DNA of 56,121 bases from Pseudomonadota bacterium. GTDB lineage: Bacteria; Pseudomonadota; Gammaproteobacteria; Burkholderiales; Rhodocyclaceae. The stretch lies in NCBI GenBank assembly GCA_026399515.1, contig JAPLQT010000093.1, positions 1 through 56,121 of the forward strand. The letters are read 5' to 3'. Below the pieces are notes generated by a model. The model ran no database searches, was not told where the DNA came from, and saw nothing but the letters and a program-made list of their open reading frames with translations. Position 1 is the stretch's first letter; every line of letters starts with the position of its first letter. Position numbers and translations under genes: made by a program. Positions 35,682-54,516 of the stretch are shown here, in pieces.

Positions 35682-35707
35682 CTTGAAATGCCGGCTATGG
35701 TCCCCAT
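35682..35707 (+). promoter_or_regulatory. sigma-32 heat-shock promoter of clpB
   Basis: CTTGAAA at 35682-35688 and CCCCAT at 35702-35707 are separated by exactly 13 bases, matching the RpoH consensus. It ends 34 bases before the clpB ATG at 35742. The position also rules out the longer open frame that begins at 35688, inside the -35 element. Confidence 0.9.
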
Positions 35708-35741: not shown

Positions 35742-38297
35742 ATGCGCTACGATAAATTGACCACCAAATTCCAGCAGGCGCTAGCCGACGCCCAGAGCAT
35801 CGCCGTCGGCAGCGACCAGCAGTTCATCGAACCGTTGCATCTGCTGCTGGCACTGCTGCAACAGGAGGACGGCGGCACGCTGTCGCTGCTTGCCCGCGCC
35901 GGTGGGAATGCCGCACCGCTGAAGGCAGCGCTGGAAAAGGCCATCGCCCGCTTGCCCAAGGTCGAGGGCCACGGCGGCGAGGTGAGTGTCGGCCGCGATC
36001 TGTCCAATCTGTTGAACGTAACCGACAAGGAGGCGCAAAAGGCCGGCGACCAGTTCATCGCCTCGGAGATGTTCCTGCTGGCGCTGATCCAGGACAAGGG
36101 CGAAGCCGGGCGTCTGCTGAAAGAACACGGCGTTCAGCGCCAGGCGCTGGAAGAAGCCGTCAAGGCGGTGCGCGGCGGCCAGAATGTGGGCAGCCAGGAG
36201 GCCGAAGGCAGCCGCGAGTCGCTGAAGAAGTATTGCCTGGACCTCACCGAACGCGCCCGCCAGGGCAAACTCGATCCGGTGATCGGTCGCGACGACGAGA
36301 TCCGCCGCGCCATTCAGATTCTGCAGCGCCGCACCAAGAACAATCCCGTGCTGATCGGCGAACCCGGCGTCGGCAAGACCGCCATCGTCGAAGGCCTGGC
36401 GCAGCGCATCATCAACGACGAGGTGCCGGAAACGCTCAAAGGCAAACGCGTCCTGAGCCTGGACATGGCGGCGCTGCTGGCAGGCGCCAAGTACCGCGGC
36501 GAGTTCGAGGAGCGCCTCAAATCAGTGCTGAAGGAGATTGCTCTGGATGAGGGGCGCATCATCGTCTTCATCGACGAGTTGCATACCATGGTCGGGGCGG
36601 GCAAGGCCGAGGGCGCCATCGATGCCGGCAATATGTTGAAGCCTGCGCTGGCGCGTGGTGAGTTGCATTGCATCGGCGCCACCACGCTGGATGAATACCG
36701 CAAATACATCGAGAAGGACGCCGCCCTGGAACGGCGCTTCCAGAAAGTGCTGGTGGACGAACCGAGCGTCGAGTCGACCATCGCCATCCTGCGCGGATTG
36801 CAGGAGAAATACGAGATCCACCATGGCGTGGACATCACCGACCCGGCGATCGTCGCCGCGGCCGAGCTTTCGCACCGCTATATCACCGACCGTTTCCTGC
36901 CGGACAAAGCCATCGACCTGATCGACGAGGCGGCGGCGCGCATCCGCATGGAGATCGACTCCAAGCCGGAAGTGATGGACAAGCTGGACCGTCGCCTGAT
37001 CCAGCTCAAGATCGAGCGCGAGGCGGTGAAGAAGGAGAAAGACGATGCTTCGAAAAAGCGCCTCGGACTGATCGAGGACGAGATCAGCAAGCTCGACAAA
37101 GAGTATTCCGACCTGGAGGAAATCTGGAAAGCCGAGAAGGCCCAGGTGCAAGGCTCCGCCCACATCAAGGAGGAGATCGACCGGGTGCGCGCGCAGATGG
37201 CCGATTTCCAGCGCAAGGGCCAGCTCGACAAGGTGGCCGAACTGCAATATGGCCGGTTGCCCCAGCTCGAAGCGCAATTGAAGGCGGCGGAGAAATCCAA
37301 TGAAGGCAATCAGCCGAACCGGCTCCTGCGCAACCAGGTCGGCGCCGGCAAGGCCGAAGGCGCCATCGATGCCGGCAACATGCTGAAGCCGGCATTGGCG
37401 CGCGGCGAACTGCACCTGCACGCCCGGGTGGTCGGACAAGACGAGGCGGTGAGGATGGTTTCCGATGCCATCCGCCGCTCGCGCGCCGGTCTGTCGGAAG
37501 AGAGCCGGCCCTACGGTTCCTTCCTGTTCCTCGGCCCCACCGGCGTGGGCAAGACCGAACTGTGCAAAGCCCTGGCGGAATTCCTGTTCGACGCGGAAGA
37601 TCACCTGATCCGCATCGACATGAGCGAATTCATGGAGAAACATTCGGTGGCACGGTTGATCGGCGCTCCTCCTGGATATGTCGGCTACGAAGAAGGTGGC
37701 TACCTGACCGAGCAGGTTCGCCGCAAGCCTTATAGCGTGATCCTCTTCGACGAAGTCGAGAAGGCGCATCCGGATGTCTTCAACGTGCTGCTACAGGTGC
37801 TTGATGACGGCCGCATGACCGACGGGCAGGGCCGCACGGTGGATTTCAAGAACACCGTGATCGTGATGACTTCTAATCTCGGCTCGCAGATGATCCAGCA
37901 GATGAGCGGCGACGATTACCAGGTGATTAAGCTGGCGGTGATGGGGGAGGTCAAGTCCTATTTCCGTCCCGAGTTCGTCAACCGCATCGACGAGATCGTG
38001 GTGTTCCACGCCCTCGACGAGAAGAACATCGCCGCCATCGCCAGGATCCAGCTTGGTAACCTGGAAAAACGGCTGGTGAAGATGGACATGAAGATCGAAG
38101 TCTCCGATGCCGCGCTAGCCCATCTGGCCCAGGCCGGTTTCGATCCGGTGTTCGGTGCGCGGCCGTTGAAGCGGGCGATCCAGGAGCATATCGAGAATCC
38201 GCTGTCCAAGCTTATCCTCGAAGGCAAGTTTGCCGCCAAGGATTGCATACGTATCGATGTCGCGCGCGGCAAGCTTAGCTTCGACAAACAGCGCTAA
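35742..38297 (+). CDS. clpB: ATP-dependent chaperone ClpB (variant linker before NBD2)
   Basis: An 851-residue Hsp100 disaggregase: N-domain (1-145), NBD1 with GEPGVGKT near 206 and FIDELHTM near 275, a middle coiled coil (about 400-525), and NBD2 with GPTGVGKTE near 597 and LFDEVEKAH near 668. Between the middle domain and NBD2 the usual ~35-residue linker with the TGIPV motif is missing. In its place is a copy of residues 284-309 ([14 protein letters not shown] to GELH) at residues 533-558. Both copies are identical in protein but differ by 13 silent bases in 78. The frame stays open and the length is close to normal (E. coli 857). The effect on nucleotide binding by NBD2 is unknown. Confidence 0.94.
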
Positions 38298-38319
38298 CCT
38301 GCAATCGTGATTGGCTATT

Positions 38320-38343
38320 CATGTACCGGAACATCGGTACATG
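38320..38343. repeat. short perfect palindrome after clpB
   Basis: Nine-base arms CATGTACCG and CGGTACATG flank GAACAT, 22 bases after the clpB stop. There is no following T run, so it is a weak terminator candidate; an operator-like site is the other reading. Confidence 0.5.
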
Positions 38344-38461
38344 TCTCATATGCCATATTCATGATAGAGTTTGACCAGGACAAGGCATGCACCGCATGTT
38401 GCTCGGATAGATCAAACGCGATGGAAAACCAGTTACTCAATCGGGTTATGGGGGCCACCCC

Positions 38462-40708
38462 ATGACGCTCCGCCTGCGGCTACGCGCTTGGCTGGTGGCG
38501 GCGACAGCGGCGACGTTGTTGACCGCATGCGGTGGAGGAGGGCCGGGAAACAGCATGAGCGCTCCGGCGCCTGTGGAAACCGTGCCTGGTGGCGGATCGG
38601 GAGGAGGGACGAATACCACGCCCGGAGGTGGCTGGTCAGGCGGCGGAACAAGTGGTCCGTCACCAGTCGAAACAGCGCCTCCGCCCGGCATTTCCCTACT
38701 GGCCGGGTTCCTAAGTGGGGACCGTTACGTTGACGCGATAGGCACGGCGGCGCGGTTCAATCGACCTGGCGCGATGGTGGTCGATAGCCTGGGCAACATC
38801 TGGGTCGAGGACATCGATCCCGGCGTCGATGCTTCGTACGGCGACGGAAGGGAGACGGTGTTGCGGGCGATCGATGCAACGGGCGCCGTCAAGACGGTGG
38901 CGAGAAATAACAGGCCGACCGGATCGGCCAATGCGAACAGCTACGCCGGGTTGACCGCAGATGGCTATGGCAATGTCTACGAGTTGGTTGATCGTATGAC
39001 AGTATTCGAAATTGGCTCGAGGGCAGCATCCAGCGGCGTCAGCCAGGCGTTCAGCACTCTGAATCCGCCTGTGCCAGGCCCCGATTTGCCTGACAGTCGA
39101 TCTTGCGAGACTCGAAGCTTAGAGGCTCAATTTCACGAGAACAACCTGGCTGGGGTGGATCACCGTGGAGCCCTGTACTGCGCGCACCGCGAGCCACTAT
39201 GGGGGCTGTTCAAGTATGCCGCTGGGCAGCCTGCGGTGAGGGTGGCGCGTAGCCTGGGTCCTGGCTGGGTCGATGGTGATGCATCGATTGCGAGTTACGC
39301 CTCCATGTCATCTCTGGTGTTTGACCCTAACGGCAATGGATACTTCGTCGACAGGTATTCAGTTCCAGGGCATGGTTCAGGAACCTACATTGGGATACGA
39401 CGCATCACCCAGCAGGGCATCTTCTCCACCCAATTTTCGAACAGATCTCAACCGGGTTATGTCGACGGCGGTCCTGATGTTGCCCTCGTCAACACGCCAG
39501 CGGAGTTGCAGGTCGATGGCGCGAGCAACGTCTATTTCAGCGATACACCCCTGCTCGACAGGACCGGGACAACGCTCCTCTATATCCGCAAGCTCATTCC
39601 GTCCGGCGCCGTGGCGACGGTGGCGGGCTCTTTCCCCGTAGTATCAATTGGGAGCGGCGTTCCGAAGGTGAATTTCGTCGTCGATGCGCCCGGGAACATC
39701 TACCGTTTCGATCAATCGCAATTGACCAGGATTGCCCCGGACGGCAGCAAGAGCGCTTTCGCAGGCGTTGTCGACGAGACTGCCAGTCAGGATGGCATCG
39801 GCAGCCAGGCGCGCTTCACGCATCCGCTCGGCGTTGCCGCCGATGCCGTAGGCAATGTCTATGTCGCCGATTGCGGCGCCCACACGGTGCGCAAGATCGA
39901 CGCTAAGGGCAACACCACAACATTGGCCGGAAAGCCTGGTGAATCGGGTAACGAGGATGGGATCGGCGCGGCGGCGCGATTCAAGTGTCCGCGCGCCATC
40001 GTTGCCGATGCCTTCGGTAATCTCTACGTCACGCATGACTGGGGGATGACATGGAACGGCTCTCTGCGCAAGATCGACGCCAAGACCGGCGCTGTCACGA
40101 CGATAGCGGCAACTAGGGCTTTAACGGCTTCGGGATTGGCGGTTGACGCCGCCGGGAGAGTTTATACGAACGATCTCGTGAACAATGCTTTGCGCGTCTA
40201 CGATCCGCACACCGACACATTCCCCTTCATTGCGCCGCGCGGTTTCGTGTATTCAGTATTGAATGCCACGAGCGCTCGCGGCGAATTCGCGGGTATGACG
40301 GTGGACGAGAAAGGCAACATCTATCTGATCGATCCTCAGGACGGGAAACTCCGCAAGGTTGATTCGCGCGGCACCGTCTCAGACCTGTATGGTGCACCTG
40401 GGGGGGGCAACGTCTCAAACCTACCGGGAGCAGGCGGGGCGATGTCGTTCCCTGCCACCGCCGGCCTCGCCATCGACTCCGCAGGCAATCTCTATGTTGC
40501 CGATAGTTGGCGGCATGTCATCCGCAAGATTGCGCCCGACGGCACGATGATCACCGTGGCCGGCGTGCCGAGCTCCTATTACGCCAAGCCCGGCGCGCTG
40601 CCCGGGTTCCTGGGAAGCCCTGTCGGAATTGCGTTGAGACCCGGCGTCAGCGGCACGCAACTGTTCGTCAGCGACGAGAACTCCGTGCTCTCGATCGTCT
40701 TGCCTTAG
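38462..40708 (+). CDS. NHL-repeat lipoprotein
   Basis: A 748-residue protein with a lipoprotein signal (LLTAC, Cys23), a low-complexity Gly/Pro/Thr linker to about residue 75, and then repeated NHL/beta-propeller motifs, for example GVAADAVGNVYVADCGAHTV followed by RKIDAKGNTTTLAGKPGE, and GLAIDSAGNLYVADSWRHVI near the C-terminus. Two fused propellers would fit the length. NHL propellers bind proteins or ligands; with a lipid anchor it is likely at the outer membrane. It shows no enzyme motif. No operon partner is seen. Confidence 0.85.
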   Translation: MTLRLRLRAWLVAATAATLLTACGGGGPGNSMSAPAPVETVPGGGSGGGTNTTPGGGWSGGGTSGPSPVETAPPPGISLLAGFLSGDRYVDAIGTAARFNRPGAMVVDSLGNIWVEDIDPGVDASYGDGRETVLRAIDATGAVKTVARNNRPTGSANANSYAGLTADGYGNVYELVDRMTVFEIGSRAASSGVSQAFSTLNPPVPGPDLPDSRSCETRSLEAQFHENNLAGVDHRGALYCAHREPLWGLFKYAAGQPAVRVARSLGPGWVDGDASIASYASMSSLVFDPNGNGYFVDRYSVPGHGSGTYIGIRRITQQGIFSTQFSNRSQPGYVDGGPDVALVNTPAELQVDGASNVYFSDTPLLDRTGTTLLYIRKLIPSGAVATVAGSFPVVSIGSGVPKVNFVVDAPGNIYRFDQSQLTRIAPDGSKSAFAGVVDETASQDGIGSQARFTHPLGVAADAVGNVYVADCGAHTVRKIDAKGNTTTLAGKPGESGNEDGIGAAARFKCPRAIVADAFGNLYVTHDWGMTWNGSLRKIDAKTGAVTTIAATRALTASGLAVDAAGRVYTNDLVNNALRVYDPHTDTFPFIAPRGFVYSVLNATSARGEFAGMTVDEKGNIYLIDPQDGKLRKVDSRGTVSDLYGAPGGGNVSNLPGAGGAMSFPATAGLAIDSAGNLYVADSWRHVIRKIAPDGTMITVAGVPSSYYAKPGALPGFLGSPVGIALRPGVSGTQLFVSDENSVLSIVLP

Positions 40709-40811
40709 CCGCTGAATTTCAGGACGCGGCTTTGGCCGACTATCGCCGACGCGGCGAAGATCAATCAGGCTGAGGCGATAGCGATCCGAACGGGGTGTTC
40801 GGCGGGGTCGA

Positions 40812-41052
40812 TCAGCTCATGCAGAAAGCGTTAACTTTGTTGCCGTCGAGGTCGCGGAAATAGCCGGCATAGAAACCACTATCGCCGCGTGGTCCTGCGG
40901 CGCCTTCGTCCTTGCCGCCCAGAGCCATGGCTTTCGCGTGCAGGGCGTTGACCTTGGCGGGGCTATCGACGACCAGTGCCACCATCACCCCGTTCCCCAC
41001 ACTTGACCGCGCGTTCGAGGTCGTTGGTTCCTAGGGTTACATATCCAATCAT
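40812..41052 (-). pseudogene. VOC (glyoxalase) family protein, internal deletion
   Basis: The start (ATG 41052, preceded by GAGGAGAG) encodes MIGYVTLGTNDLERAVK, a normal VOC N-terminus. It then joins at about 41002 to a C-terminal part, GNGVMVALVVDSPAKVNALH ... GYFRDLDGNKVNAFC, in a different frame. About half of a ~125-residue protein is missing in the middle, and the join is one base out of frame, so no functional product is expected. The ends are well preserved, suggesting a recent deletion. Confidence 0.85.
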
Positions 41053-41314
41053 GGGTCTCTCCTCGTTTGGTTTTCGGTGTGGGGAACTACGCTGAACATG
41101 ATATCCCATTCGGCGGAACCGTCACCGGCCTGCATTCAATCGATGCGCGCTCGTCAAAGCACCAACGGTGTGGATCTTTCTCACGAAATCCGTCTTTGAT
41201 ATACGTGATTCGTGCCGCATTTCCTGTAGTCCGTCGCAACTGCCTCGTAGTGTGGATTGCTGTCTCCTATATTTCGATCAACGGCGGATTCGCGCCGGTT
41301 GATAGGAGAAGAAA

Positions 41315-41506
41315 ATGAACTCATTTCCGGCAATCAATAAGCTTACGAAATCCCTGGCCGGTGTCTTGGCCATGTTGGCAACGGTTGTGGTGCTGGGCGC
41401 TCCGTTGACGCTCGCGGAGTATTATGCCCACACCGGCTCAATTGAATACATTGCTGCAAACACCTTGGCCGGCCAGGCGGTTTCAGCCCTCCCGCGGAAT
41501 TCCTGA
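41315..41506 (+). CDS. small exported peptide of unknown function
   Basis: A 63-residue reading frame with an AGGAG site six bases ahead of its ATG. It has a clear hydrophobic signal (residues 12-33, ending LTLAEYY), leaving a mature part of about 30 residues with no cysteine. I do not recognise the family. It stands alone between a VOC pseudogene and a DUF4389/LytS/LytTR run on the same strand. The ribosome site and signal argue that it is real, but codon statistics over so few codons prove little. Confidence 0.5.
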   Translation: MNSFPAINKLTKSLAGVLAMLATVVVLGAPLTLAEYYAHTGSIEYIAANTLAGQAVSALPRNS

Positions 41507-41611
41507 GAGATCGCGTCGGCCCGAACAACTTGGCACGGCGAACTCCAGAGGCAATACGGTGGCGGGAATCTGCCTGGACCTATCATAGTTTCACCAGATT
41601 GGAGAATATTC

Positions 41612-41884
41612 ATGGATCAGCTTCCAGTTGAAACGACCGCCAGACGCAGTTTGTTCACCCGCATACTATTGATGATCCTGATGGCGATTGCCTATTCGTT
41701 ATCGGGCACGGTCTTGTTTATCGTCGCGGTGATCCAAATTGCTTTTACATTATTCACTGACATGCCTAACTCGCACCTAATCCCCTTCAGCCGCAGTCTG
41801 GGCCTGTACTTTCAACAGATTGTGAGTTTCCAGACGTTTGTCACCGAGGAACTGCCATTTCCTTTCAACGATTGGCCTTCCTGA
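41612..41884 (+). CDS. DUF4389 domain-containing membrane protein
   Basis: A 90-residue protein with one long hydrophobic segment (about residues 16-50) and the DUF4389 tail pattern: FTDMPNSHLIPFSRSLGLYFQQIVSFQTFVTEELPFPFNDWP in outline, with FxRSL and PFPFxDWP. Function unknown for the family. A TTGGAG site is ahead of the ATG. It is 87 bases upstream of the LytS-like kinase on the same strand. Confidence 0.85.
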   Translation: MDQLPVETTARRSLFTRILLMILMAIAYSLSGTVLFIVAVIQIAFTLFTDMPNSHLIPFSRSLGLYFQQIVSFQTFVTEELPFPFNDWPS

Positions 41885-41971
41885 TCGAGCAGCCGGTGTC
41901 CGGGTTTGGCGCTTAGGCCGTCGGCACCATCCCACCAAAGATGTAAATCAAGCATTCGATTCGGATTGAAT

Positions 41972-44038
41972 ATGTTCAAAGCCTTCGGAAATTTTTTGCA
42001 CCGTACGCCTTGGTGGGCTTTGATCCTGCTTGGCTTCTCCATGCTCATTCTTCTCGGTTTGTTCGTCACGCCCTTTCATGTGATCAATCTGCAACGAAGC
42101 GGCAATACGCCGGAGCAGAATCGGGCCATCAAGCGTGAAATCGATGTGAACTTCGGCCAGAGCGCACTGGGTATCGCCGAAGAAGTCGTGAAGGCGCTGC
42201 AACGCAGCAGTAAAGACCCTGCTCGCGTCGCTGAACTCGACCGAGCCATCCAGGAAATCGACCGGGCGCGCCGGGAAATCCAGGCCGACCTCGGCACTGG
42301 CGAATCGTCACGGTCGGATGCAGGTGAAGCCCGTCGCGCGGCCAGGGAAGCCGCGCTCGAAGCCGCGCAAGATAGCTACGAAGCCGCTGTCGAAGCGCGT
42401 GAGGCGATCGAGGAATCTCAACAGGAAATTCGACGCACGCTACAGGAAGGAAAGATTCCCGTCTCGGAATGGCCGAAGTCGCTGGATAAAGAACTCCAGG
42501 CGGCAAAGAAGGTGGAAGAAAAAGCCAAGCTCAGGGTCGAGAAAACCAGGGCCAAGCTGAAGGATCGCCGGGTCTCGATTGCGATCGCTACGGATACCGA
42601 GCAGCCAGTAGTCGATATCAAGACGGACGAATTGCCGTTGCCGCCCGAATCGGCAACGCCTCCGGAACCACCCGGCAACACGCTGGAAATCGCACCGCCT
42701 GCAATACCTCTTCCGCCGCCGCTGCCAAACGAACTGAAGCAGGACATCCGCTCCAAGGTCTCCAGCGACCTGTATCGCATCGGCGTGGGTTCCATCGTCA
42801 TCCTGCTGTTCATACCACTGTTCATGATCGCCCTGATCGCCAAATACTTCATCGGCCGGGCGCGACGGATGCAGGAGTTAGCGGAACTGAAAAAGAAGGA
42901 AGCCGAATTCCACAGCTTCAGCCGCCAGATCACCGAAGCCAAATTGCAGGCGCTACAGGCGCAGGTTGAACCCCACTTTCTGTACAACACGCTGGCAAAC
43001 GTACAGGCCCTGACCGAGGTCGATCCAGCCGCGGCCAACACCATGGTCGGCAATTTAATCCAGTATTTGCGCGCCTCGCTGCCCAAGATGCGTGAGACCG
43101 GCTCTACAGTCGAGCAGGAAGTCGAGAGGGTTGAAGCGTTTCTCAATATCCTCAAGATGCGCATGGGCGAACGCCTGGAATTCGCCATCGATGTCGCCGA
43201 AGACGCCAAATCGCTGTCGTTCCCGCCGCTGATATTGCCGACGCTGGTCGAAAACGCCATCAAACACGGGCTGGAACCACTGCGTGAAGGTGGTCGAATC
43301 GACATCGTTGCGAAAGTCGAAGACGGCCAATTGGTGGTGAGCGTCAGAGACAATGGCCGAGGTTTAAGCACAGGCACCGATACCGTGGGCGGCGGGGTTG
43401 GCCTGTCGAATATCCGCGAAAGACTTGCGGCGCTGTTCGGCGGATCAGCCACCATGACCCTGATGGAGCATCAACCCCGAGGGGTGGTGGCAAGGATAGC
43501 CGTGCCGATTTCGAAGCCAGTGACCGCTGCCCTCGACGCGAACGGGAATGCTTCACCGAGCGGCCCACTCGATACGGGGAAGAATGAAGCGATCGCTAAC
43601 GGAGTCGCCGCGAAGGCCTGGTCCAAGGTGAAGAAGACCCATAGCGTGTGGGGCAACATCATTTCGTTTACTTTCATCGCGCTGATGGTTTTGCTGGCGG
43701 TCGTGTTCGGCGTTGCCCTGGCGGCGATGCTGGCTGGAGCCATGCCCGTTATGATTGGTGGTATGCAGTTGGAGGGTATGGAGGGACTGGCTCTTGGGTC
43801 GTTGGGCCTCCTGGTCGGCTTCACGGTAGTTACCTTGGCCATCATTGTGGTTGTTGCGGTGATCTACGGTCTGGGTGTGTTGTTTGCAGGATTGCTGATT
43901 TTTATTCCTGTCGTTATATTGATCGCCATTTTCCCGGCCTTGGCACCGGGAGTTCTGGTGGGATTGCTGATTTATTGGTTTGTTCGCAAGAAAAGGAAGC
44001 ATGACGCTCCATCCGGAAACGATCAGCGTCCGCATTGA
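41972..44038 (+). CDS. LytS-like sensor histidine kinase with C-terminal membrane domain
   Basis: A 688-residue kinase: membrane segment at about 14-34, a long periplasmic helical, Ala/Glu/Arg-rich region (about 45-200) and a Pro-rich stretch, second membrane segment at about 268-292, His_kinase domain with the phospho-acceptor in VEPHFLYNTLANVQAL near 332-347, and HATPase (LVENAIKHGLEP near 425, NGRGLS, GVGLSNIRERL). Unusually, after the HATPase there is an Ala/Gly-rich linker and about four further hydrophobic segments (about 552-670) ending in a basic tail. Start ATG 41972 fits; the longer frame lacks a site. The LytTR regulator follows 31 bases later. Confidence 0.88.
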   Translation: MFKAFGNFLHRTPWWALILLGFSMLILLGLFVTPFHVINLQRSGNTPEQNRAIKREIDVNFGQSALGIAEEVVKALQRSSKDPARVAELDRAIQEIDRARREIQADLGTGESSRSDAGEARRAAREAALEAAQDSYEAAVEAREAIEESQQEIRRTLQEGKIPVSEWPKSLDKELQAAKKVEEKAKLRVEKTRAKLKDRRVSIAIATDTEQPVVDIKTDELPLPPESATPPEPPGNTLEIAPPAIPLPPPLPNELKQDIRSKVSSDLYRIGVGSIVILLFIPLFMIALIAKYFIGRARRMQELAELKKKEAEFHSFSRQITEAKLQALQAQVEPHFLYNTLANVQALTEVDPAAANTMVGNLIQYLRASLPKMRETGSTVEQEVERVEAFLNILKMRMGERLEFAIDVAEDAKSLSFPPLILPTLVENAIKHGLEPLREGGRIDIVAKVEDGQLVVSVRDNGRGLSTGTDTVGGGVGLSNIRERLAALFGGSATMTLMEHQPRGVVARIAVPISKPVTAALDANGNASPSGPLDTGKNEAIANGVAAKAWSKVKKTHSVWGNIISFTFIALMVLLAVVFGVALAAMLAGAMPVMIGGMQLEGMEGLALGSLGLLVGFTVVTLAIIVVVAVIYGLGVLFAGLLIFIPVVILIAIFPALAPGVLVGLLIYWFVRKKRKHDAPSGNDQRPH

Positions 44039-44069
44039 TTGACCAGCCGATGACAACGGAGATACCTCT

Positions 44070-44846
44070 ATGGTCTTGACGGCCATCATTGCTGAAGACG
44101 AGCCGATACTCAGGGCCCAACTCAAGACCAAGCTGGGCAAGCTGTGGCCGGAGTTGCAGATCCTGGCGGACGTAGGCGACGGCGAGGCCGCCCTACAGGC
44201 GATCAGCACGCATCAACCGTCCCTGGCGTTTCTGGATATTCAGATGCCCGAAATGACGGGCGTCGAGGTCGCCAGGCGTTTGGCGGGCAACAAGGACATG
44301 CGTTGCCATGTGGTCTTCGTCACCGCCTTCGATCAATATGCCGTGGAAGCCTTTGAAACCGGCGCGATCGACTATGTGCTGAAACCGTATAGCGACGAGC
44401 GTCTCGCCGCAACCATAGCGCGCCTGAGGGCCCGATTGGATGTCCAGTCACCTTCCGGACCTGGGCAGGATCTGACGGCGCTGCTCGAACGTCTCGCCGC
44501 GAAGCTCACTCCACAGTCAGACCGGCTGAAGTGGATCAAGGCCAACATAGGCGCAAACCTGAGTTTGATCCCGATCGACGACGTCCTGTTTTTTCAAGCC
44601 GATGAAAAGTACACGTTGGTAGCCACCAGGGAAAAGGATGCCTTGATTCGGACCCCGATCAAGGAGTTGCTGGTCGGACTCGATCCCGAGAAGTTCTGGC
44701 AAATTCATCGTTCGACCGTCGTTAACGCCACCTCGATCGAATCCGTTTCCCGCGACATTCACGGACAGGCCACGGTCAAGATCCGCGGACGCAAGGAAAA
44801 CCTTAGCGTCAGCCGTCCCTTTTCCCATCTATTCAAGCAAATGTAG
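44070..44846 (+). CDS. LytTR family response regulator
   Basis: A 258-residue regulator with a receiver domain (residues 1-120; phospho-acceptor Asp in LAFLDIQMPEMTG near 56, switch Lys in YVLKPY) and a C-terminal LytTR DNA-binding domain (about 150-256; VLFFQADEKYTLVAT, FWQIHRSTVVN). It should be phosphorylated by the LytS-like kinase just upstream. Its DNA target is unknown; LytTR proteins often bind direct repeats ahead of membrane or secreted protein genes. Confidence 0.93.
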   Translation: MVLTAIIAEDEPILRAQLKTKLGKLWPELQILADVGDGEAALQAISTHQPSLAFLDIQMPEMTGVEVARRLAGNKDMRCHVVFVTAFDQYAVEAFETGAIDYVLKPYSDERLAATIARLRARLDVQSPSGPGQDLTALLERLAAKLTPQSDRLKWIKANIGANLSLIPIDDVLFFQADEKYTLVATREKDALIRTPIKELLVGLDPEKFWQIHRSTVVNATSIESVSRDIHGQATVKIRGRKENLSVSRPFSHLFKQM

Positions 44847-44891
44847 GGGTATTTCCGGACTCGTAGGTTTGGAGTGGCGAAATTCGAAATA

Positions 44892-44944
44892 TAAGTTGAC
44901 CAATTAAGTCGGATTTATTATAGTTGACTGTATTAGTCAGGTAA
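44892..44944 (+). promoter_or_regulatory. SUF operon promoter with two IscR-like type 1 boxes
   Basis: A sigma-70 promoter is visible: TTGACC at 44896-44901, 17-base spacer, TATAGT at 44919-44924. Overlapping it are two matches to the E. coli IscR type 1 consensus. The downstream one (44920-44944, ATAGTTGACT...TAGTCAGG) mismatches only at the last position; the upstream one (44892-44916, GTTGACC...AAGTCGG) is weaker, with five or so mismatches. This placement would allow repression by [2Fe-2S] IscR. iscR is not in the window. Confidence 0.8.
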
Positions 44945-45031
44945 GTTGAGTGGTGCCTGTCCAATAAGCTATATTAGGAGTAGCTAATAGCTGGTCCTCT
45001 GTTCGTGGTACATGACAATGGCGATTTTGAA

Positions 45032-46468
45032 ATGAGTGCGGTACTGCAAAACCTGGTTAACCAACCCTACAAGCACGGTTTCGTCACCGACATCGAGTCC
45101 GATGTGGCGCCGCGGGGGCTCAGCGAAGAGACTATCCTGATGATCTCCGCCAAGAAGCAGGAGCCCGAATGGCTGCTCGACTTCAGGCTCAAGGCATACC
45201 GACAATGGCTCACCATGGTCGAACCGGCTTGGCCGAACGTCAAGTATCCACCGATAGATTTCCAGGAGATCAGCTATTACGCGGCCCCCAAGCCAAAGAA
45301 GAAGTTGAGCAGCATGGACGAGGTCGATCCGGAGTTGTTGCGCACCTTCGAGAAGCTCGGCGTGCCGATGCACGAGCGTGCCGCCCTGGCCGGCGTGGCG
45401 GTCGATGTAATTTTCGACAGCGTTTCGGTGACGACCACCTATAAACACAAGTTGGCCGAAGTCGGCATCATTTTCGGTTCGATCTCGGAAGCGGTGCATG
45501 AACATCCCGAGCTGGTAAAGAAGTACCTCGGCAGCGTCGTGCCGGTCGGCGACAATTTTTATGCGGCACTCAATTCGGCCGTGTTTACCGACGGTTCCTT
45601 CTGCTTCATCCCCAAGGGCGTCAAATGTCCGATGGACTTGTCCACCTATTTCCGCATCAACACGGAAGGCTCGGGGCAATTCGAACGCACCTTGATCATC
45701 GCCGAAGAAGGGGCGTCGGTCTCTTATCTGGAGGGCTGCACGGCGCCCCGATTCGACACCAACCAACTGCATGCCGCGGTGGTAGAGCTGATTGCGCTGG
45801 ACAACGCCGATATCAAGTACTCGACGGTGCAGAACTGGTATGCGGGTGACGAATCCGGCGTCGGCGGCATCTACAATTTCGTCACCAAGCGCGGCTTGTG
45901 CCGGGGCGTCAACTCGCGCATTTCCTGGACTCAGGTCGAAACCGGCTCGGCGATCACCTGGAAGTATCCGTCCTGTGTGCTGCTGGGGGACAACTCGGTC
46001 GGCGAGTTCTATTCGGTTGCCGTCACCAACCATCATCAGCAGGCCGATACCGGCACCAAGATGATTCATATCGGCAGGAACACCCGCAGCACCATCGTCA
46101 GCAAAGGCATCTCCGCGGGTCTATCGAACAACAGCTATCGCGGGCTGGTGAAGGTCGCGCCGAGTGCGGAGGGAGCGCGCAATTATTCGCAATGCGATTC
46201 GATGCTGATCGGCGACCGGTGCAGCGCCAATACCTTCCCTTACATCCAGGTGCGCAACAACCGCGCCAAGGTCGAGCACGAGGCGTCGACCTCGAAGATC
46301 GGCGAGGACCAGTTGTTCCTTTTCGCTCAGCGCGGCATTGGCGCTGAGGAGGCGGTATCGATGATCATCAACGGATTCTGCAAGGACGTATTTCAACAAT
46401 TGCCGATGGAGTTCGCCGTCGAGGCGACCAAGCTGCTCGGATTCAAACTCGAAGGGAGTGTCGGATGA
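45032..46468 (+). CDS. sufB: Fe-S cluster assembly protein SufB
   Basis: A 478-residue scaffold subunit of the SufBCD complex, which builds Fe-S clusters. Family landmarks include [12 protein letters not shown] at the N-terminus, SYLEGCTAP with a conserved Cys, and [20 protein letters not shown]. The beta-helix core and the C-terminal [15 protein letters not shown] are complete. ATG 45032 gives the normal N-terminus. It is the first gene after the IscR-like promoter and overlaps sufC by four bases. Confidence 0.96.
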
Positions 46469-47268
46469 TTTATCAGGACAGCCGGACGCTGCTGGAAGTG
46501 CGCGGCTTGCGTGCCACCGTAAGCGGCATCGAAATCCTGAAAGGGCTGGACTTCACGGTGAACAGCGGCGAAGTGCATGCGATCATGGGGCCGAACGGTT
46601 CGGGCAAGAGCACCTTTGCCAAGGTGCTGGCCGGTCACCCGGCCTATACCGTGACGGGCGGCACGGTGAGCTTCATGGGACGCAACCTGTTCGATCTGGC
46701 GCCCGAAGAACGGGCGCGGGCTGGGGTGTTCCTGGCTTTTCAGTATCCGATCGAGATCCCCGGCGTCGCCAACAGCCAGTTTCTGCGCCTGGCCTACAAC
46801 ACCCTGCAGGCGCAGCGCGGCAAGGATGAACTCGACCCGCTCGAGTTCGACGACTTCGTGCGCGAAAAGATGAAGCTGCTCGAAATGAACCCGGATTTTC
46901 TCGACCGCAGCGTCAATGAAGGATTTTCCGGCGGCGAAAAGAAGCGCAACGAAATCTTGCAGATGGCGATACTCGAACCGAGGCTGGCGATTCTCGATGA
47001 GACAGATTCCGGCCTCGACATCGACGCTCTGCGGATCGTTTCCCAAGGTGTCAACCAGCTTGCCAACCCGGAGTCTGCGACGGTGCTGGTGACCCACTAC
47101 CAGCGGCTGCTCAACTATATCGTCCCTGATTTCGTGCATGTCATGGAGGCGGGCCGCATCATCAAGACCGGCGGCAAGGAGTTGGCGCTGGAGCTCGAGA
47201 CGCGCGGCTACGACTGGGTCGGCGCCGAGCACCTGGAACAAGAGGCGGCGGGGCGGGTGGCGGCATGA
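46465..47268 (+). CDS. sufC: Fe-S cluster assembly ATPase SufC
   Basis: A 267-residue ABC-type ATPase: Walker [10 protein letters not shown] near residue 44, the family-specific [13 protein letters not shown] near 92, signature [10 protein letters not shown] near 155, and Walker [13 protein letters not shown] near 174. It drives the SufB-SufD scaffold in the cytoplasm. Its stop overlaps sufD's start by four bases. The C-terminus is a little longer than the E. coli protein (248). Confidence 0.96.
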
Positions 47269-48575
47269 ACGCAATCGCCGCCGCCGGCTACCTGGAGAGC
47301 CTGCTGGCCGGACAACCGCATCTTCCAGCCGCATCGCCGGCCTTGGGATGGATCAACGAATTGCGCGCCGAGGCGGTGGACCGCGTCGGCGAGTTGACGG
47401 TCCCCAGCCTGCGCGACGAGGATTGGCGCTTTACCGATATTTCGCAACTCACCAGGCTATCGTTCCAGCGGGCGCAGGCGCTTACCCCGCTACTACCGGC
47501 GGATATCGAGCGCTTTCATATCGCGGAAGCGTCCAACCGCCTGGTGTTTGTCGATGGCCTGTATGCACCTCGGCTCTCCAGCATTGCCGCGGACAGCGGC
47601 GTGGTGGTGACTCACCTGACGGAGGGAGGGGCGGAGCATGCTGCACTTATCGAGGCGCATCTGGGACGTCATGCGAACTTCGGCAACAATGTGTTCGCCG
47701 CGCTGAATACGGCGTTTCTGCAGGATGCCGCGCTGATCCTGGTACCACGCAACACCACGGTTTCAGGACCGCTGCATGTGCTGTTCATCGCGACGCAAGC
47801 CGGGGTGGCTAGCTATCCGCGTTGTCTCCTGGTCGCGGAAACCGGTAGTGCCGTGACGCTGATCGAAGACTATGTCGCGCTACAGGAAGCCGCCTATTTC
47901 ACCGACGCCGTGACCGAAATCTCCGTTGCCGACGATGCGCAGGTTAGTCATGTCCGGGTGCAGCGCGAAGGCACCCAGGGCTTTCACATCGCCAATTGCG
48001 CGGTGTCCCTGGCCCGCGCCAGTCGTTACCACTCGGTGAGCGTTGCGCTGGGTGCGCGGCTATCGCGCTACAACCTGAACGTGTTGCAAACAGGCGAAGG
48101 CGCCGAGTGCAGCGTCGACGGGCTGGCTCTGATAGCCAGCCGCCAGCTTGCCGATACCCATACCTATATCGACCACGCCCGGCCGTTTGGGATCAGCCGG
48201 CAGTTGCACAAGTGCATCGTCGGCGGGGCCGCACACGCGGTATTCAACGGCAAGATCATGGTCCGTCCGGGTGCGCAGCGCACCGACTCTGCCCAATCGA
48301 GCCGTAACCTGCTGCTGAGCGACAAGGCGTACATCGATACCCAGCCTCAATTGGAGATTTTCGCCGATGACGTGAAATGCACACATGGTGCGACAGTCGG
48401 CCAACTCGACAACGAGGAAGTGTTTTACCTGACCAGCCGCGGCTTGTCGGACGATGTCGCACGAAAGTTGCTGACCTATGCATTCGGCGCCGAGATCATC
48501 GAGCGCATTCCCGTCGCCTCACTCCGACAGCAGCTCGCGCAGACGGTACTGGCGCAGACCTCGGGCCAGCCATGA
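47265..48575 (+). CDS. sufD: Fe-S cluster assembly protein SufD
   Basis: A 436-residue paralogue of SufB. The N-terminal RDEDWRFTDISQLTR (about 44-58) and the C-terminal VKCTHGATVGQLDNEEVFYL, where Cys and His face SufB in the known complex, are typical. SufD is needed for iron entry into SufBCD. Start and stop both overlap neighbours by ATGA, so translation is coupled through sufC-D-S. Confidence 0.95.
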   Translation: MNAIAAAGYLESLLAGQPHLPAASPALGWINELRAEAVDRVGELTVPSLRDEDWRFTDISQLTRLSFQRAQALTPLLPADIERFHIAEASNRLVFVDGLYAPRLSSIAADSGVVVTHLTEGGAEHAALIEAHLGRHANFGNNVFAALNTAFLQDAALILVPRNTTVSGPLHVLFIATQAGVASYPRCLLVAETGSAVTLIEDYVALQEAAYFTDAVTEISVADDAQVSHVRVQREGTQGFHIANCAVSLARASRYHSVSVALGARLSRYNLNVLQTGEGAECSVDGLALIASRQLADTHTYIDHARPFGISRQLHKCIVGGAAHAVFNGKIMVRPGAQRTDSAQSSRNLLLSDKAYIDTQPQLEIFADDVKCTHGATVGQLDNEEVFYLTSRGLSDDVARKLLTYAFGAEIIERIPVASLRQQLAQTVLAQTSGQP

Positions 48576-49825
48576 ACGCGCCTTTGCCTAAGAATCGCAG
48601 CGCGCCGGCATTCGACGTTGCGCGTATCCGCGAAGATTTTCCGATACTCAAGCTCAAGGTCCATGACCAGCCGCTGGTCTATCTGGATAACGCCGCCACC
48701 AGCCAGATGCCGCAGCAGGTCATCGATCGCCTGGTACGCTATCAGACCACGCAGCACGCCAATATTCACCGGGCGGTGCATTACCTGTCGGAAACCGCCA
48801 CCGCCGAATATGCCGATGCCCGCCGCAAACTTCAGAAATTCATCCATGCCCGCGAGGACCGTGAGGTGATTTTCACCAGCGGTACCACCGACTCGATCAA
48901 CCTGGTGATGCACGCCTACGGACGCAAGTTCATCGGCGCCGGCGACGAAATCATCCTCACCACACTGGAACATCATTCGAATATCGTGCCCTGGCAGATG
49001 TTGGCCGAAGAGCGGGGTGCGAAGATACGCGTGGTGCCGATCAACGACGATGGCGAGTTGCTGATCGACGAATATGAGAAGCTCTTCAACGAGCACACCC
49101 GCTTCGTCGGCGTGACACATGTCTCGAATGCGCTGGGCAGCATCAATCCGGTCAAGCGGATGATCGCCTTTGCGCACGAGCGCGGCGTGCCGGTGCTGGT
49201 CGATGGTGCCCAGGCGGCTCCCCACATGCCGATCGACGTGGTGGACCTGGATTGCGACTTCTATGCATTCTCAGGCCACAAGCAGTGCGGCCCGACCGGC
49301 ATAGGCATCCTGTATGGCAAGGCGGCCTTGCTCGAGCGCATGCAGCCTTTCAAGGGCGGCGGTGACATGATCCTGTCGGTCACTTTCGAGAAGACCACCT
49401 ACAGCACTATTCCGCACAAATTCGAGGCGGGCACGCCGCCGATCGCGGCTGCGATAGGCTTCGGGGCCGCGGTCGACTACCTGTCGGCCATCGGCATGGA
49501 CAGGATCGCTGCCCACGAACTGGAGCTGCTGAATCACGCGACCGAGCAGATGCAAGGACTGTCCGGCGTGCGCATCGTCGGCAATGCGCGGAGCAAGGCC
49601 GCCGTGCTGTCTTTCGTGATCGACGGCATACACCCTCACGACGTCGGCACCCTGCTCAACCAGGAAGGCGTGGCGGTGCGGACCGGCCATCATTGCGCGC
49701 AGCCGGTGATGCAGCGTTATGGCATACCGGCCACCTCGCGCGCCTCGTTTGCGTTCTACAACAGCCTGTCGGAAGTGGACGCGTTGATAGCCGGCATACG
49801 CAAGGTGCAGAAGGTGTTTGCATAA
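48572..49825 (+). CDS. sufS: cysteine desulfurase SufS
   Basis: A 417-residue PLP-dependent desulfurase that takes sulfur from cysteine and passes it to SufU. The PLP lysine is K237 in SGHKQCGPTG and the persulfide cysteine is C375 in RTGHHCAQP. ATG 48572 overlaps the sufD stop; the longer frame upstream is inside sufD. The SufS group (type II) often needs a dedicated sulfur acceptor, here SufU, encoded next. Confidence 0.95.
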   Translation: MNAPLPKNRSAPAFDVARIREDFPILKLKVHDQPLVYLDNAATSQMPQQVIDRLVRYQTTQHANIHRAVHYLSETATAEYADARRKLQKFIHAREDREVIFTSGTTDSINLVMHAYGRKFIGAGDEIILTTLEHHSNIVPWQMLAEERGAKIRVVPINDDGELLIDEYEKLFNEHTRFVGVTHVSNALGSINPVKRMIAFAHERGVPVLVDGAQAAPHMPIDVVDLDCDFYAFSGHKQCGPTGIGILYGKAALLERMQPFKGGGDMILSVTFEKTTYSTIPHKFEAGTPPIAAAIGFGAAVDYLSAIGMDRIAAHELELLNHATEQMQGLSGVRIVGNARSKAAVLSFVIDGIHPHDVGTLLNQEGVAVRTGHHCAQPVMQRYGIPATSRASFAFYNSLSEVDALIAGIRKVQKVFA

Positions 49826-50310
49826 TGGCGGACCCAAGGACGCTGTACCAGGAAGTCATCCTCGACCACAATCGCAAGCCCCGCAATTATGGCGTGCTGG
49901 AACACCCCAGCCATCATGCGGAAGGCGTGAACCCGCTATGCGGCGATCACATCACGGTGGCGCTCGACGTCGCCGGCGAAACAGTCGCCGGCATCGCGTT
50001 CCAAGGCGAGTCGTGCGCGATCTGCAAGGCGTCGGCGTCGATGATGACCGCCGCGATCAAGGGCAAGACGCGCGCCGAAGCCGAAATCCTGATACAGGAG
50101 TTTCTCGATATGGCGACCGGCAAACGTGATCTGGGCCAACTCTCTCATATCGGGCGGCTGACAGTATTCGCCGGGGTGCGTGAGCTCCCGATGCGCGTCA
50201 AATGCGCGATCCTGCCCTGGCACACGCTGCATGCCGCGTTCCACTCGGTGGCGAGCGTTTCGACCGAGGCGGACGCCGATCCGATGCCGGCGCCGATCGG
50301 AAACGGATGA
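49825..50310 (+). CDS. sufU: SUF system sulfur relay protein SufU
   Basis: A 161-residue IscU-fold protein of the SufU type. Key cysteines are C39 (NPLCGDH), C64 and C67 (SCAICKAS) and C127 (VKCAIL), with the insertion between the second and third ligand regions that marks SufU. In Gram-positive bacteria SufU is a zinc-dependent sulfur transfer partner of SufS; sufE is not seen here, so the same role is inferred. The stop of sufS and the start share one base. Confidence 0.93.
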   Translation: MADPRTLYQEVILDHNRKPRNYGVLEHPSHHAEGVNPLCGDHITVALDVAGETVAGIAFQGESCAICKASASMMTAAIKGKTRAEAEILIQEFLDMATGKRDLGQLSHIGRLTVFAGVRELPMRVKCAILPWHTLHAAFHSVASVSTEADADPMPAPIGNG

Positions 50311-50338
50311 ATATGCAAGATCGTTTTAAGAGATCGAG

Positions 50339-50899
50339 ATGCCAAAAATAGCCGAAATCGAGGGCACGCCCAACCCCAATGCGATGAAGTTCATCCTCAA
50401 GGAACCGTTGACTTGGGGAATATCCCGCTCCTACGAGAATGCCGAGCAGGCGAAAGGTGACCCGCTCGCCTCGGCGTTGTTCGACATCGAGCACGTCACC
50501 AATGTTTTCTATGTCGAGCACTGGATCACGGTCACGCAGGATGGTGGCGCCGACTGGCAGGAGTTGAAACGCCGGCTCGCCGAGCCGATACGCGCTGCTC
50601 CGGCGGCGGATGTGGAATCGGCTGCCTTGGCGGAGGCGGCGACGGAGTCGATATCCAAACTCGCTCCCGAGGACCGACTACGCCTTGACCGGATCAACGC
50701 CTTGTTGGACGAGGATATCCGTCCTTACCTGCAAAGCGACGGCGGCGATCTTTATGTGCTGGGCCTCGTCGGCAATACGCTCAACGTTCATTACCAGGGA
50801 GCCTGCGGCAGTTGTCCCAGTTCGATGTCGGGAACACTGAGCAGCATCCAGAGACTGGTGGAAACCATTGAACCGGACCTTGAAGTCGTGGCTGTCTAG
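50339..50899 (+). CDS. NifU family Fe-S scaffold/carrier with Nfu N-terminal domain
   Basis: A 186-residue protein with an Nfu_N domain (about 1-90; IEGTPNPNAMKFIL) and a C-terminal NifU domain (about 105-186) with the cluster CxxC at C156/C159 in GACGSCPSS. The two parts are joined by an Ala-rich linker. Nfu proteins carry [4Fe-4S] clusters to targets. It sits between sufU and the Rieske gene, which suggests a delivery role in the same operon. Confidence 0.92.
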   Translation: MPKIAEIEGTPNPNAMKFILKEPLTWGISRSYENAEQAKGDPLASALFDIEHVTNVFYVEHWITVTQDGGADWQELKRRLAEPIRAAPAADVESAALAEAATESISKLAPEDRLRLDRINALLDEDIRPYLQSDGGDLYVLGLVGNTLNVHYQGACGSCPSSMSGTLSSIQRLVETIEPDLEVVAV

Positions 50900-50901
50900 G
50901 A

Positions 50902-51222
50902 ATGAGTGAATGGGTGACGGTTGCGCGTGTCGGCCAATTCGCGCCGGGCGAGTGGCAAGCCGTGGATGTCGACGGCGCACATTTGGCGGTGTTCAATCTC
51001 GATGGTGAATATTTCGCCATCGAGGATGTGTGTACCCATGACGGCGGACAACTCACCGGCGGTTTGGTAGAAGGCGACCAGGTCATCTGCCCGCGCCACG
51101 GCGCCCGTTTCTGCATCCGCACCGGCGCGGCGCTCTGCGCGCCCGCTTACGAGCCCACCGCCAGTTTTCCGGTGCGCATCGAAGACGGTGAAGTCCAGGT
51201 CCGCGACAACCGCTGGGATTGA
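50902..51222 (+). CDS. non-haem Rieske-type ferredoxin
   Basis: A 106-residue Rieske [2Fe-2S] protein, ligands C44-x-H46 (CTHD) and C63-xx-H66 (CPRH). There is no signal peptide or membrane anchor, so it is a soluble cytosolic ferredoxin like those at the end of many suf operons, or in aromatic dioxygenase systems. Two bases separate it from nfu. A role as electron donor for cluster assembly is inferred. Confidence 0.92.
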   Translation: MSEWVTVARVGQFAPGEWQAVDVDGAHLAVFNLDGEYFAIEDVCTHDGGQLTGGLVEGDQVICPRHGARFCIRTGAALCAPAYEPTASFPVRIEDGEVQVRDNRWD

Positions 51223-51735
51223 TTCCTCGATAGAGAAAAGCCGAACCGCAACCGCACCACCTTACCGAATGGCTAATATGACATCGTCTCAGCCCGCAGC
51301 GGAAACGTCGGCGGTGCCTGCCGAGGTGGCGGCAGAGGGGACCATGTCGTCATCGTCCGTATCGCCGAACCGGATTACTTGAACCCATGGAGGAATGGCT
51401 CGTGTCTTTCCCTTCAGGATGGACTGTAGCCAGGGGTTGGCAGGGGGTGAAATGATGTCAATCAATGTCGGACTAAGCATTTTCATTCTACGGTCCTTGT
51501 GTAAAATCTAAATCGACGTTTGGATGATGCAGTTGTAGATGGGTACGCCAATGTAGAAGTTCAACCGGCATTTGAAATATATATTGTCTGGATACAAGGG
51601 TAACGGTGCATTAGCTGCGAAGAGCCATGAAAGTAAAGGGGTCATAATTTGGAAATATCTGTAGTTGATGCTAGCGATACCTGAAAGCGTTACAATCTTT
51701 CTGCCGTTTTACTTAAATCAACCAAAGGGGAAGCC
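51223..51735. other. 513-base gap with no secure gene
   Basis: The gap between the Rieske gene and hupB is AT-richer than its surroundings, mostly over 51480-51720. It holds one plausible small frame on the minus strand (51289-51486, listed separately) and probably the hupB promoter near its right end; a TACAAT at about 51690 is a candidate -10, but no -35 at the right spacing is visible. I see no repeat or hairpin of note. Confidence 0.6.
51289..51486 (-). CDS. candidate 65-residue peptide, unknown
   Basis: A short frame on the minus strand starting MKMLSPTLIDIISPPANPW, with AAGGA nine bases ahead of the ATG. It has two Pro-Pro pairs, two Trp, an acidic run GDTDDDD and an Ala/Ser/Gly/Thr tail, no Cys and no signal peptide. 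I do not recognise it. It could be a small regulatory or modified peptide, or chance; a longer frame on the plus strand (51188-51382) is likely its shadow or also chance. Confidence 0.35.
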   Translation of the reverse strand: MKMLSPTLIDIISPPANPWLQSILKGKTRAIPPWVQVIRFGDTDDDDMVPSAATSAGTADVSAAG

Positions 51736-52038
51736 ATGAACAAGTCTGAACTTATCGATGTTGCGGCCAAAGCCGCCGATGTTTCCAAAGCTGCTGCCGG
51801 CAAGGCGCTCGACGCCATCATCGATGCGGTCACCAAAGCCGTTTCCAAGGGAGAGAGTGTGACTCTGGTCGGTTTCGGTACATTCAGTTCATCCAAGCGC
51901 GCAGCACGTGTCGGGCGCAACCCGCAGACCGGCAAGGAACTCAAGATCGCGGCGACCACCGTGCCCAAGTTCAAGGCAGGCGCGGGATTCAAGGCGGCTG
52001 TCGGCGGCAAGAAGAAGGCGCCAGCCAAGAAAAAGTAA
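51736..52038 (+). CDS. HU family DNA-binding protein
   Basis: A 100-residue histone-like protein of the HU family. [21 protein letters not shown] begins the usual dimerisation helices; the arm [21 protein letters not shown] is at about residues 46-66. The tail [11 protein letters not shown] is an added lysine-rich extension seen in some betaproteobacteria. It binds DNA non-specifically and compacts the nucleoid. An AAAGGGGAAG site precedes the ATG, and a strong hairpin follows. Confidence 0.93.
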
Positions 52039-52049
52039 TTCGTTTCAGA

Positions 52050-52075
52050 GCTGCCGCCGATCGCACGGCGGCAGC
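52050..52075 (+). terminator. terminator-like hairpin after the HU gene
   Basis: A perfect ten-base GC-rich stem (GCTGCCGCCG with CGGCGGCAGC) around a six-base loop lies 11 bases after the stop. It lacks a T run, so termination is likely but may be incomplete or Rho-assisted. Confidence 0.65.
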
Positions 52076-52146
52076 CTGGAGTTGGCTCGATTCGGCCCGT
52101 ATGGCCGATAGAGTTCGATTCGTCATATACCAGCACGGAAATCACC

Positions 52147-53178
52147 ATGGGCCACGCCCTGTTGCAAACGACGATAGCCGGGAGTCTTCCGAAGCCTTCC
52201 TGGTTGGCCGCTCCAAAACAATTATGGGCGCCCTGGCTGCTTGAGGGCGAAGCGCTTGAGGAAGGCATGAAGGATGCCGTGCGGCTGGTTCTGTATGACC
52301 AGAATGCCGCTGGCATAGATATCGTCAGCGACGGCGAACAAACGCGTCGGCACTTCGTGACGACCTTCATCGAAAGCCTGGAAGGCATCGACTTCGAGCA
52401 CAAGCGCACGATGCGCATCCGCGATCGTTACGACGCCGAGGTGCCTGTCGTGGTCGGTCCGGTGTCCCGGCGCAAACCGGTGTTCCTGGAACACGCACGA
52501 TTTCTTAGGGCGGAAACCAGCAAGCGCATCAAATTCACCCTGCCCGGTCCGATGACCATGGTGGATACGCTGTTCGACGGCTATTACAAGAGCCGGGAAA
52601 AACTGGCCGGCGTATTCGCCGATATTCTCAATGCCGAGGCGTGCGAGCTTGAAGCACTGGGCATCCACATCATCCAGTTCGACGAACCGGCCTTCAACGT
52701 TTTCATGGACGAGGTGCGCGACTGGGGCATCGCAAGCTTGGAGCAGGCCGCAGCCGGCCTGAAGTGCAGGACCGCGACGCACATTTGTTACGGCTATGGC
52801 ATCAAGGCCAATATCGACTGGAAGAATTCCATCGGTTCGGAATGGCGCCAATATGAATCGACTTTTCCATTACTGGCCAAATCGACGATAGACCAGATCT
52901 CGCTTGAATGCGCCAACTCCAAGGTTCCCTTGGAGTTGATCTCACTCCTCGGTGGCAAGGACATCATGGTTGGGGCCATCGACGTGACCACCGAACAAGT
53001 GGAGACTCCCGAACAGGTCGCCAAAGTGATACGCGCGGCGATGAAGTATGTGGCGCCGGAAAAGCTCTACCCCTGCACCAACTGCGGGTTGGTTCCCCTC
53101 TCGCGGGAAGCCGCGCGTGGAAAATTGCGCGCCCTGGCCGCAGGTGCAGCCATCGTCAGGAAAGAACTCGCAGGCTGA
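52147..53178 (+). CDS. core MetE-type methionine synthase (MetE C-terminal domain only)
   Basis: A 343-residue TIM-barrel protein equivalent to the C-terminal catalytic half of cobalamin-independent methionine synthase. Zinc ligands can be placed: H212 and C214 in HICYG, E254 in SLEC and C313 in TNCGL. The N-terminal half that binds polyglutamylated folate in full MetE is absent. Such core MetE proteins exist in bacteria and archaea and may use another methyl donor, such as a corrinoid protein; the donor cannot be told here. No metal or folate partner gene is nearby. Confidence 0.87.
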   Translation: MGHALLQTTIAGSLPKPSWLAAPKQLWAPWLLEGEALEEGMKDAVRLVLYDQNAAGIDIVSDGEQTRRHFVTTFIESLEGIDFEHKRTMRIRDRYDAEVPVVVGPVSRRKPVFLEHARFLRAETSKRIKFTLPGPMTMVDTLFDGYYKSREKLAGVFADILNAEACELEALGIHIIQFDEPAFNVFMDEVRDWGIASLEQAAAGLKCRTATHICYGYGIKANIDWKNSIGSEWRQYESTFPLLAKSTIDQISLECANSKVPLELISLLGGKDIMVGAIDVTTEQVETPEQVAKVIRAAMKYVAPEKLYPCTNCGLVPLSREAARGKLRALAAGAAIVRKELAG

Positions 53179-53298
53179 GCTCGATGCGAGGAAGCATCCT
53201 CGACCAGCTTGACAACTCAAACGTTTAGGATTCATATGCAATCCATGCGCGCAAGTGCATGGATCGCCATTCCACAATAACGCCAATAAGGAGGAGTC

Positions 53299-53715
53299 AT
53301 GTCTATTTCAGCGAGAAAACTGGCAACAATTGCGATGGGTGCCGGAACATTGATGTTCGCGGGGGGGTTGGTCGCCCAAGCGCCTGCTCTGCAGCGCACC
53401 ATCGTCCAGAAGGCCGATGTTTCCGTCGCAGGCAGGGAAGCCGTGGTGGCGCGTGTGGAAGTGGCTCCCGGAGGTGTGGCCGGTTGGCATACCCATCCGG
53501 GTGACGAAATCAGCTACGTCATGGAAGGCGAAGGCGAGGTGATGATCGCGGGTCAGCCGAACCGGATCTACAAGTCAGGAGAGGCGTTCGTGATCCCGGC
53601 CGGTGTGGTTCACAATGCAAGAAATCCAGGCACCGTTCCTGTCAAGCTCGTGGGCGTTTATGTGGTCGAAAAAGGCAAGCCGCTGGCCACACCTGCGCCT
53701 GCTCCCGCCCAATAA
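53299..53715 (+). CDS. exported cupin domain protein
   Basis: A 138-residue protein with a signal peptide (residues 1-26, ending VAQA) and one cupin domain: motif 1 GWHTHPGDEISYVMEGEG (metal ligands His, His, Glu) and motif 2 IPAGVVHNARN (His). It ends in a Pro/Ala tail. Substrate unknown. A strong AAGGAGGAG site precedes the ATG. The exported methyltransferase gene follows by 24 bases, so the two may form an operon. Confidence 0.88.
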   Translation: MSISARKLATIAMGAGTLMFAGGLVAQAPALQRTIVQKADVSVAGREAVVARVEVAPGGVAGWHTHPGDEISYVMEGEGEVMIAGQPNRIYKSGEAFVIPAGVVHNARNPGTVPVKLVGVYVVEKGKPLATPAPAPAQ

Positions 53716-53739
53716 AGCGATACGCCGCGAGGTCTTGAT

Positions 53740-54498: not shown

Positions 54499-54516
54499 TG
54501 GCGGTTCGGAAGGCGG

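Follow-up and report, generated by a model that had tools for sequence, protein, structure and literature searches.

A chimeric clpB linker in a Rhodocyclaceae draft genome, probably a local assembly error

The ClpB disaggregase, described by the family model TIGR03346 (chaperone_ClpB), has a D1-D2 connector that carries the motif TGIPV. In short-patch double illegitimate recombination, a short foreign segment replaces a stretch of the recipient at microhomology or at blunt ends. Harms et al. (2016), as cited in PMC7192050, described segments that enter a genome with relaxed identity needs, as the clpB patch reported here would have done; that process acts on cellular DNA, whereas the patch is known here from one deposited draft. 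Local errors in metagenome-assembled genomes were described by Chen et al. (Chen et al., 2020, PMC7111523). According to that paper, Ns were inserted despite overlap in IDBA-UD and CLC assemblies, and local consensus stretches without read support are also described. In PMC9661791, conserved sequences common to several organisms are stated as a cause of misassembly.

The gene analysed here lies in the window, by which is meant the whole stretch of 56,121 nucleotides (contig JAPLQT010000093.1) from a Rhodocyclaceae draft genome (GCA_026399515.1). This genome is called G000, and the other G numbers stand for the genomes compared with it; feature positions are collected in Table 1. A box upstream of clpB, which we take to be a sigma-32 promoter from its consensus, overlaps the first ATG (35688), so the ATG at 35742 is the likelier start. 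A scan for sigma-70 promoters upstream of clpB, which does not cover sigma-32, gave no match. Using TIGR03346, the whole protein scores 1363.3 bits against a cut-off of 1232.1, split over three stretches, and the best stretch stops at residue 551 of the 869-residue ORF, which is where the patch starts. Both AAA modules match in Pfam, and the frame is intact through the patch in the translation from ATG 35742. The protein thus shares with the ClpB disaggregase its domains and its highly conserved positions outside the patch: among columns conserved to at least 95% (row L115 left out), all 8 departures of G000 fall inside the patch and none outside. What it lacks is the TGIPV connector. Among named loci, the closest are for the most part betaproteobacterial: an uncultured beta proteobacterium MAG (85%), a Gammaproteobacteria-labelled MAG (81%), Gallionellaceae (80%) and Methyloversatilis (79%).

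Residues 284-309 and 533-558 of this ClpB, numbered from ATG 35742, are identical at all 26 positions, and chance is far too weak to explain an exact repeat of 26 amino acids. At the DNA level, 13 of 78 bases distinguish the two copies without changing a residue, 10 in third positions and 3 in first positions of Leu codons. The second copy stands where the linker should be. Between VGA and LHAR, about 32 residues are out and 23 are in, which corresponds to about 96 bp of linker exchanged for 69 bp; across this stretch G000 is usually short of its relatives by 9 or 10 codons. TGIP[VI] is present at the linker in all 106 other ClpB-like ORFs (loci L001-L114) and absent in G000, and none of the 106 has VGAGKA twice; under the motif filter, 6 of the 114 loci gave no ClpB-like ORF (L002-L004, taken from elsewhere in G000, and L023, L030 and L096). 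The genus mates G002 and G003 do not have the patch, and G001 has no complete clpB. The ORF, its coordinates, the residue numbers and the identical repeat had been given in a preliminary description made from the sequence alone, and all of these were correct. The silent nature of the 13 differences was recounted without finding a changed residue, the missing TGIPV linker was borne out by the relatives, and the claimed sigma-32 promoter could be located as the pattern listed in Table 1.

Table 1. Positions of features in the window and in other sampled loci of G000
Feature	Position	Strand	Remark
Sigma-32-like box, CTTGAA-N14-CCCCAT	35682..35707	+	Pattern found in the sequence; consensus presumed to be that of sigma-32
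clpB coding sequence	35742..38294	+	851 codons from likely start ATG 35742; ORF listing begins 35688
NBD1 segment after Walker B, codons 284-309	36591..36668	+	First copy, at its usual place
Codon 531, Asn	37332..37334	+	Two codons before patch; Thr in 69/69 family/betaproteobacterial panel rows
Left join, 11-nt word GGTCGGCGCCG	37337..37347	+	Common to relatives' normal linker start (e.g. G113) and donor-like NBD1 segment
78-bp patch, codons 533-558	37338..37415	+	Second NBD1-segment copy replacing TGIPV linker; base-identical to G265 clpB from codon 284
Right join, CTGCAC head-to-tail repeat	37410..37421	+	Donor-like sequence and relatives' linker have at most 1 nt in common across the exact join
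miaB ORF	L167:1109-2566 (G000:C60); repeat ~2030-2251		TIGR01574 above cut-off
N run with duplicated overlap	L147:17305		24 nt
N run with duplicated overlap	L244:10125		16 nt
N run with duplicated overlap	L143:700		11 nt
N run with duplicated overlap	L161:4565		9 nt
13-N gap in presumed nrdR-like gene	L251:2088 (G000:C16)		MLALRKRPV encoded on both sides with silent differences

The patch was found to resemble the clpB of another genus more than its own first copy. It is matched in 364 of 395 family genomes, G000 included. The best match outside the window is identical at 78/78 bases and lies in a different genus (G265), in a clpB whose linker is normal, from codon 284 on; since the segment is highly conserved, this match is no proof of G265 or its genus as the source. 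Two further genomes reach 97% and the genus mate G002 92%, while the window's own first NBD1 copy agrees at 65/78 bases. By these base identities, the patch is the homologous NBD1 segment of some other clpB rather than a duplicate of the NBD1 that this gene now has. At the right join, donor-like sequence agrees through GAACTGCAC and the linkers of relatives agree from (C)CTGCACGCC onward. A degenerate pattern of this junction, the one junction searched, had no match in genome_contigs (one genome per species, 84,980 species), a collection that may omit the window's own genome or a very near one. In the whole panel of 98 rows, 18 have Asn at residue 531, all of them outside the family/betaproteobacterial set.

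The chimeric clpB linker is most probably a local assembly error of a scaffolded short-read draft, with a probability of about 0.8. Two pieces of clpB meant to meet in the D1-D2 linker would have been joined via a short NBD1 stretch from the clpB of a related organism, the left side by the 11-nt common word and the right side almost bluntly. As the overlap at the right join is below that of a k-mer, this reading requires a step of gap filling or scaffolding. The living organism would then have an ordinary ClpB carrying TGIPV. Residue 531, just before the patch and odd for the family, is a supporting sign. We infer that the clpB join shares its cause with other faulty joins in the assembly, and we take the draft to have been assembled from short reads. 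Further joins of this kind were found in G000 at 4 of 15 N runs, at an nrdR-like gap and in miaB.

The draft is rated 95.3% complete and 0.6% contaminated, and the sample taken from it comprised 1,476,631 bases (80 stretches and the window). Not counting three short all-N contigs, it contains 15 internal N runs of 1-79 nt, interpreted here as gaps left by scaffolding; some may instead be masked sequence. At 4 of the 15, an exact overlap is duplicated across the gap (Table 1); the control, some 20,000 positions drawn at random without those containing N, yielded a single one with at least 9 nt. The gene around the 24-nt case is presumably SRP54/ffh-like. At another gap, in a gene which we take to be nrdR-like, the same nine residues are encoded on both sides with silent differences, and the ends of diverged homologues were joined there. 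By two tests, 10 of the 15 N runs have neither an exact nor a silently diverged duplicated flank, and the complete relative G025 has no N run in 800,000 bases. The 4 duplicated overlaps, repeated and not merged, are of the error type described by Chen et al. (PMC7111523). The clpB patch differs from the errors described there in having neither an N nor a simple overlap, and it would need a fill from a homologous segment whose proper place is elsewhere in clpB.

Repeats without any gap were also searched for in G000. In miaB, 37 residues stand in tandem twice with no gap; between the two copies there are 12 silent differences over the first 23 codons, then a swap of two residues, and finally 12 codons (36 bases) without any difference. 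Residues 317-353 of PDB chain 7mjv_A align to both copies, and this partial duplication is probably a second assembly error like that of clpB. On contig C48 (L161:14044), a 17-nt word, AGATCGGAAGAGCGTCG, ends a silently diverged repeat; we take the word to be similar to an Illumina adapter and the repeat to be PAS-like. Diverged PAS repeats alone would be ordinary, and a second form of the adapter had no match across the whole G000 genome. The remaining amino-acid repeats of G000 (two ORFs in L157, one in L237 and one in L244) look ordinary.

The same amino-acid repeat scan, run on 800,000 bases of G025, picked up only tandem repeats that are nearly identical and a low-complexity locus, and no repeat with silent divergence comparable to those of G000. 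A scan for diverged repeats at the DNA level returned 43 rows for G000 and 88 for G025, the latter mostly from one low-complexity locus, and does not separate the two genomes. When 677,262 bases of the G000 sample (window included) were compared with the G025 sample, 94 orthologue-like pairs were obtained and 3 blocks were flagged, with clpB alone clear. Replaced blocks are therefore rare, and such errors are not frequent.

Several observations count against an artefact. There is no N run at the clpB join, the right join is almost blunt, the frame is kept through the patch, which has a chance of 1 in 3, and only one other gap-free case, miaB, was judged unnatural. The balance is tipped towards assembly error over recombination by the other joins of silently diverged homologues in the same draft. 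The preliminary description had favoured recombination with a related clpB and had used the silent differences as an argument against an assembly problem. Its view of the patch as foreign stands, on the full match to G265 and the lower identity to the gene's own copy. Its argument from the silent differences fails, as these exclude a simple repeat collapse only; diverged homologous ends were also joined at the nrdR-like gap and in miaB.

The genes flanking clpB are syntenic with those of the genus mates G002 and G003, and the stretches upstream and downstream match genus mates best, which rules out a gross join of two organisms at clpB. From clpB to the gene that follows it in G003, the window has about 16 kb (38298-54536), where the same spacing is 173 bp in G003 and 8.6 kb in G002; either G000 has gained this stretch by insertion or the other genomes have lost it. 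In the genus mate G001, the contig ends within the 5' part of clpB (L127, G001:C19:12000-17085), so clpB breaks the assembly there too. In sequence identity and in quick trees, the NBD1 half of the G000 gene looks closer to other genera (G113, G025) and the D2 half closer to genus mates. These trees suggest a mosaic gene, its NBD1 half foreign and its D2 half native, but AU tests do not establish it: the genus clade is not rejected in NBD1 (p 0.197) and in the N-terminal part (p 0.345), and pairing with G113 is rejected in the N-terminal part (p 0.003) and borderline in D2 (p 0.056).

A real event is unlikely, in which a short single strand of a foreign clpB would have entered by natural transformation and replaced the linker by short-patch double illegitimate recombination at short or no homology. 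The foreign-type patch, whose left join has the short common word of 11 nt and whose right join is almost blunt at no more than 1 nt, resembles a product of such recombination, but assembly can give the same picture. Short-patch double illegitimate recombination is named in PMC7192050, where it is also supposed to be insignificant in natural populations. The dprA and comEC families are present in G000 and permit transformation, but they are common among the 14 control genomes (dprA in 11, comEC in 10) and therefore prove little. A recent recombination event would agree with the lack of change at conserved residues beyond the patch, and the apparent nearness of the two gene halves to different genomes points the same way, but the mosaic is not established by the AU tests. 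Recombination would also have to hit miaB, and it has to stand beside artefactual joins of diverged homologous ends in the same assembly and a right junction that is in no other species searched.

It is quite improbable that the bacterium lives with a sole ClpB whose D1-D2 connector came from the NBD1 of another genus by short-patch recombination. clpB is dispensable under mild conditions. Whether relatives share the variant, whether the genome has a second clpB and what a structure model gives had been put forward in the preliminary description as checks; the first returned neither a relative among the 106 nor another species with the right junction, and the second found no further clpB in G000, the draft being incomplete. 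The other matches in G000 are two adjoining ones on contig C112 (46-48% identity), which we take to be ClpA-like, and a weak one on contig C60.

A functional variant, in which the NBD1 helix would form a new D1-D2 connector and the disaggregase would work with an armless NBD2, is very improbable. The frame, the sigma-32-like box and the conserved positions outside the patch are all intact, and no other clpB was found in G000, all of which would fit such a protein. Against it, none of the 106 relatives has the variant, and T546, G547, I548 and P549 are invariant in 47 normal ClpBs (alignment A2, whose rows were selected with TGIP as one filter; 7 rows dropped had a stop or X). According to the alignment, residues 545-555 (numbered in the reference protein) are the residues replaced in the variant. 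As for the structure model, AlphaFold2 gave the variant a mean pLDDT of 57, 38 and 73 for residues 531-540, 541-550 and 551-560 (pTM 0.42), and the normal relative L095 82, 70 and 67 over the same blocks (pTM 0.55). Confidence is not high for either model. The variant also stays below 50 pLDDT over residues 303-339 of its NBD1, where the self-repeat may confuse the prediction. NBD2 of the variant would be expected to be impaired, and a ClpB without its interdomain arm would probably be impaired as well.

A further reading, that the gene long ago duplicated its NBD1 segment internally and the copies later diverged at silent sites, would explain the same peptide within the same gene but is close to negligible. 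The copies differ by 13 silent and 0 replacement changes, although nothing would have held the second one to the NBD1 sequence; neither G002 nor G003, both genus mates, has the patch; and the match to G265 at every base, well above that to the own copy, contradicts this reading.

As an artefact, the chimeric clpB is a warning, since an in-frame, stop-free chimera with silent differences passes for a good gene in a draft, and the same signature recurs in miaB and at the nrdR-like gap of G000. Should the patch be genuine, it would represent the natural loss of an interdomain arm from ClpB and one of the rare cases in which short-patch recombination between genera can be seen. A bacterium living with such a ClpB would then be a natural experiment on the dispensability of the TGIPV swinging arm.
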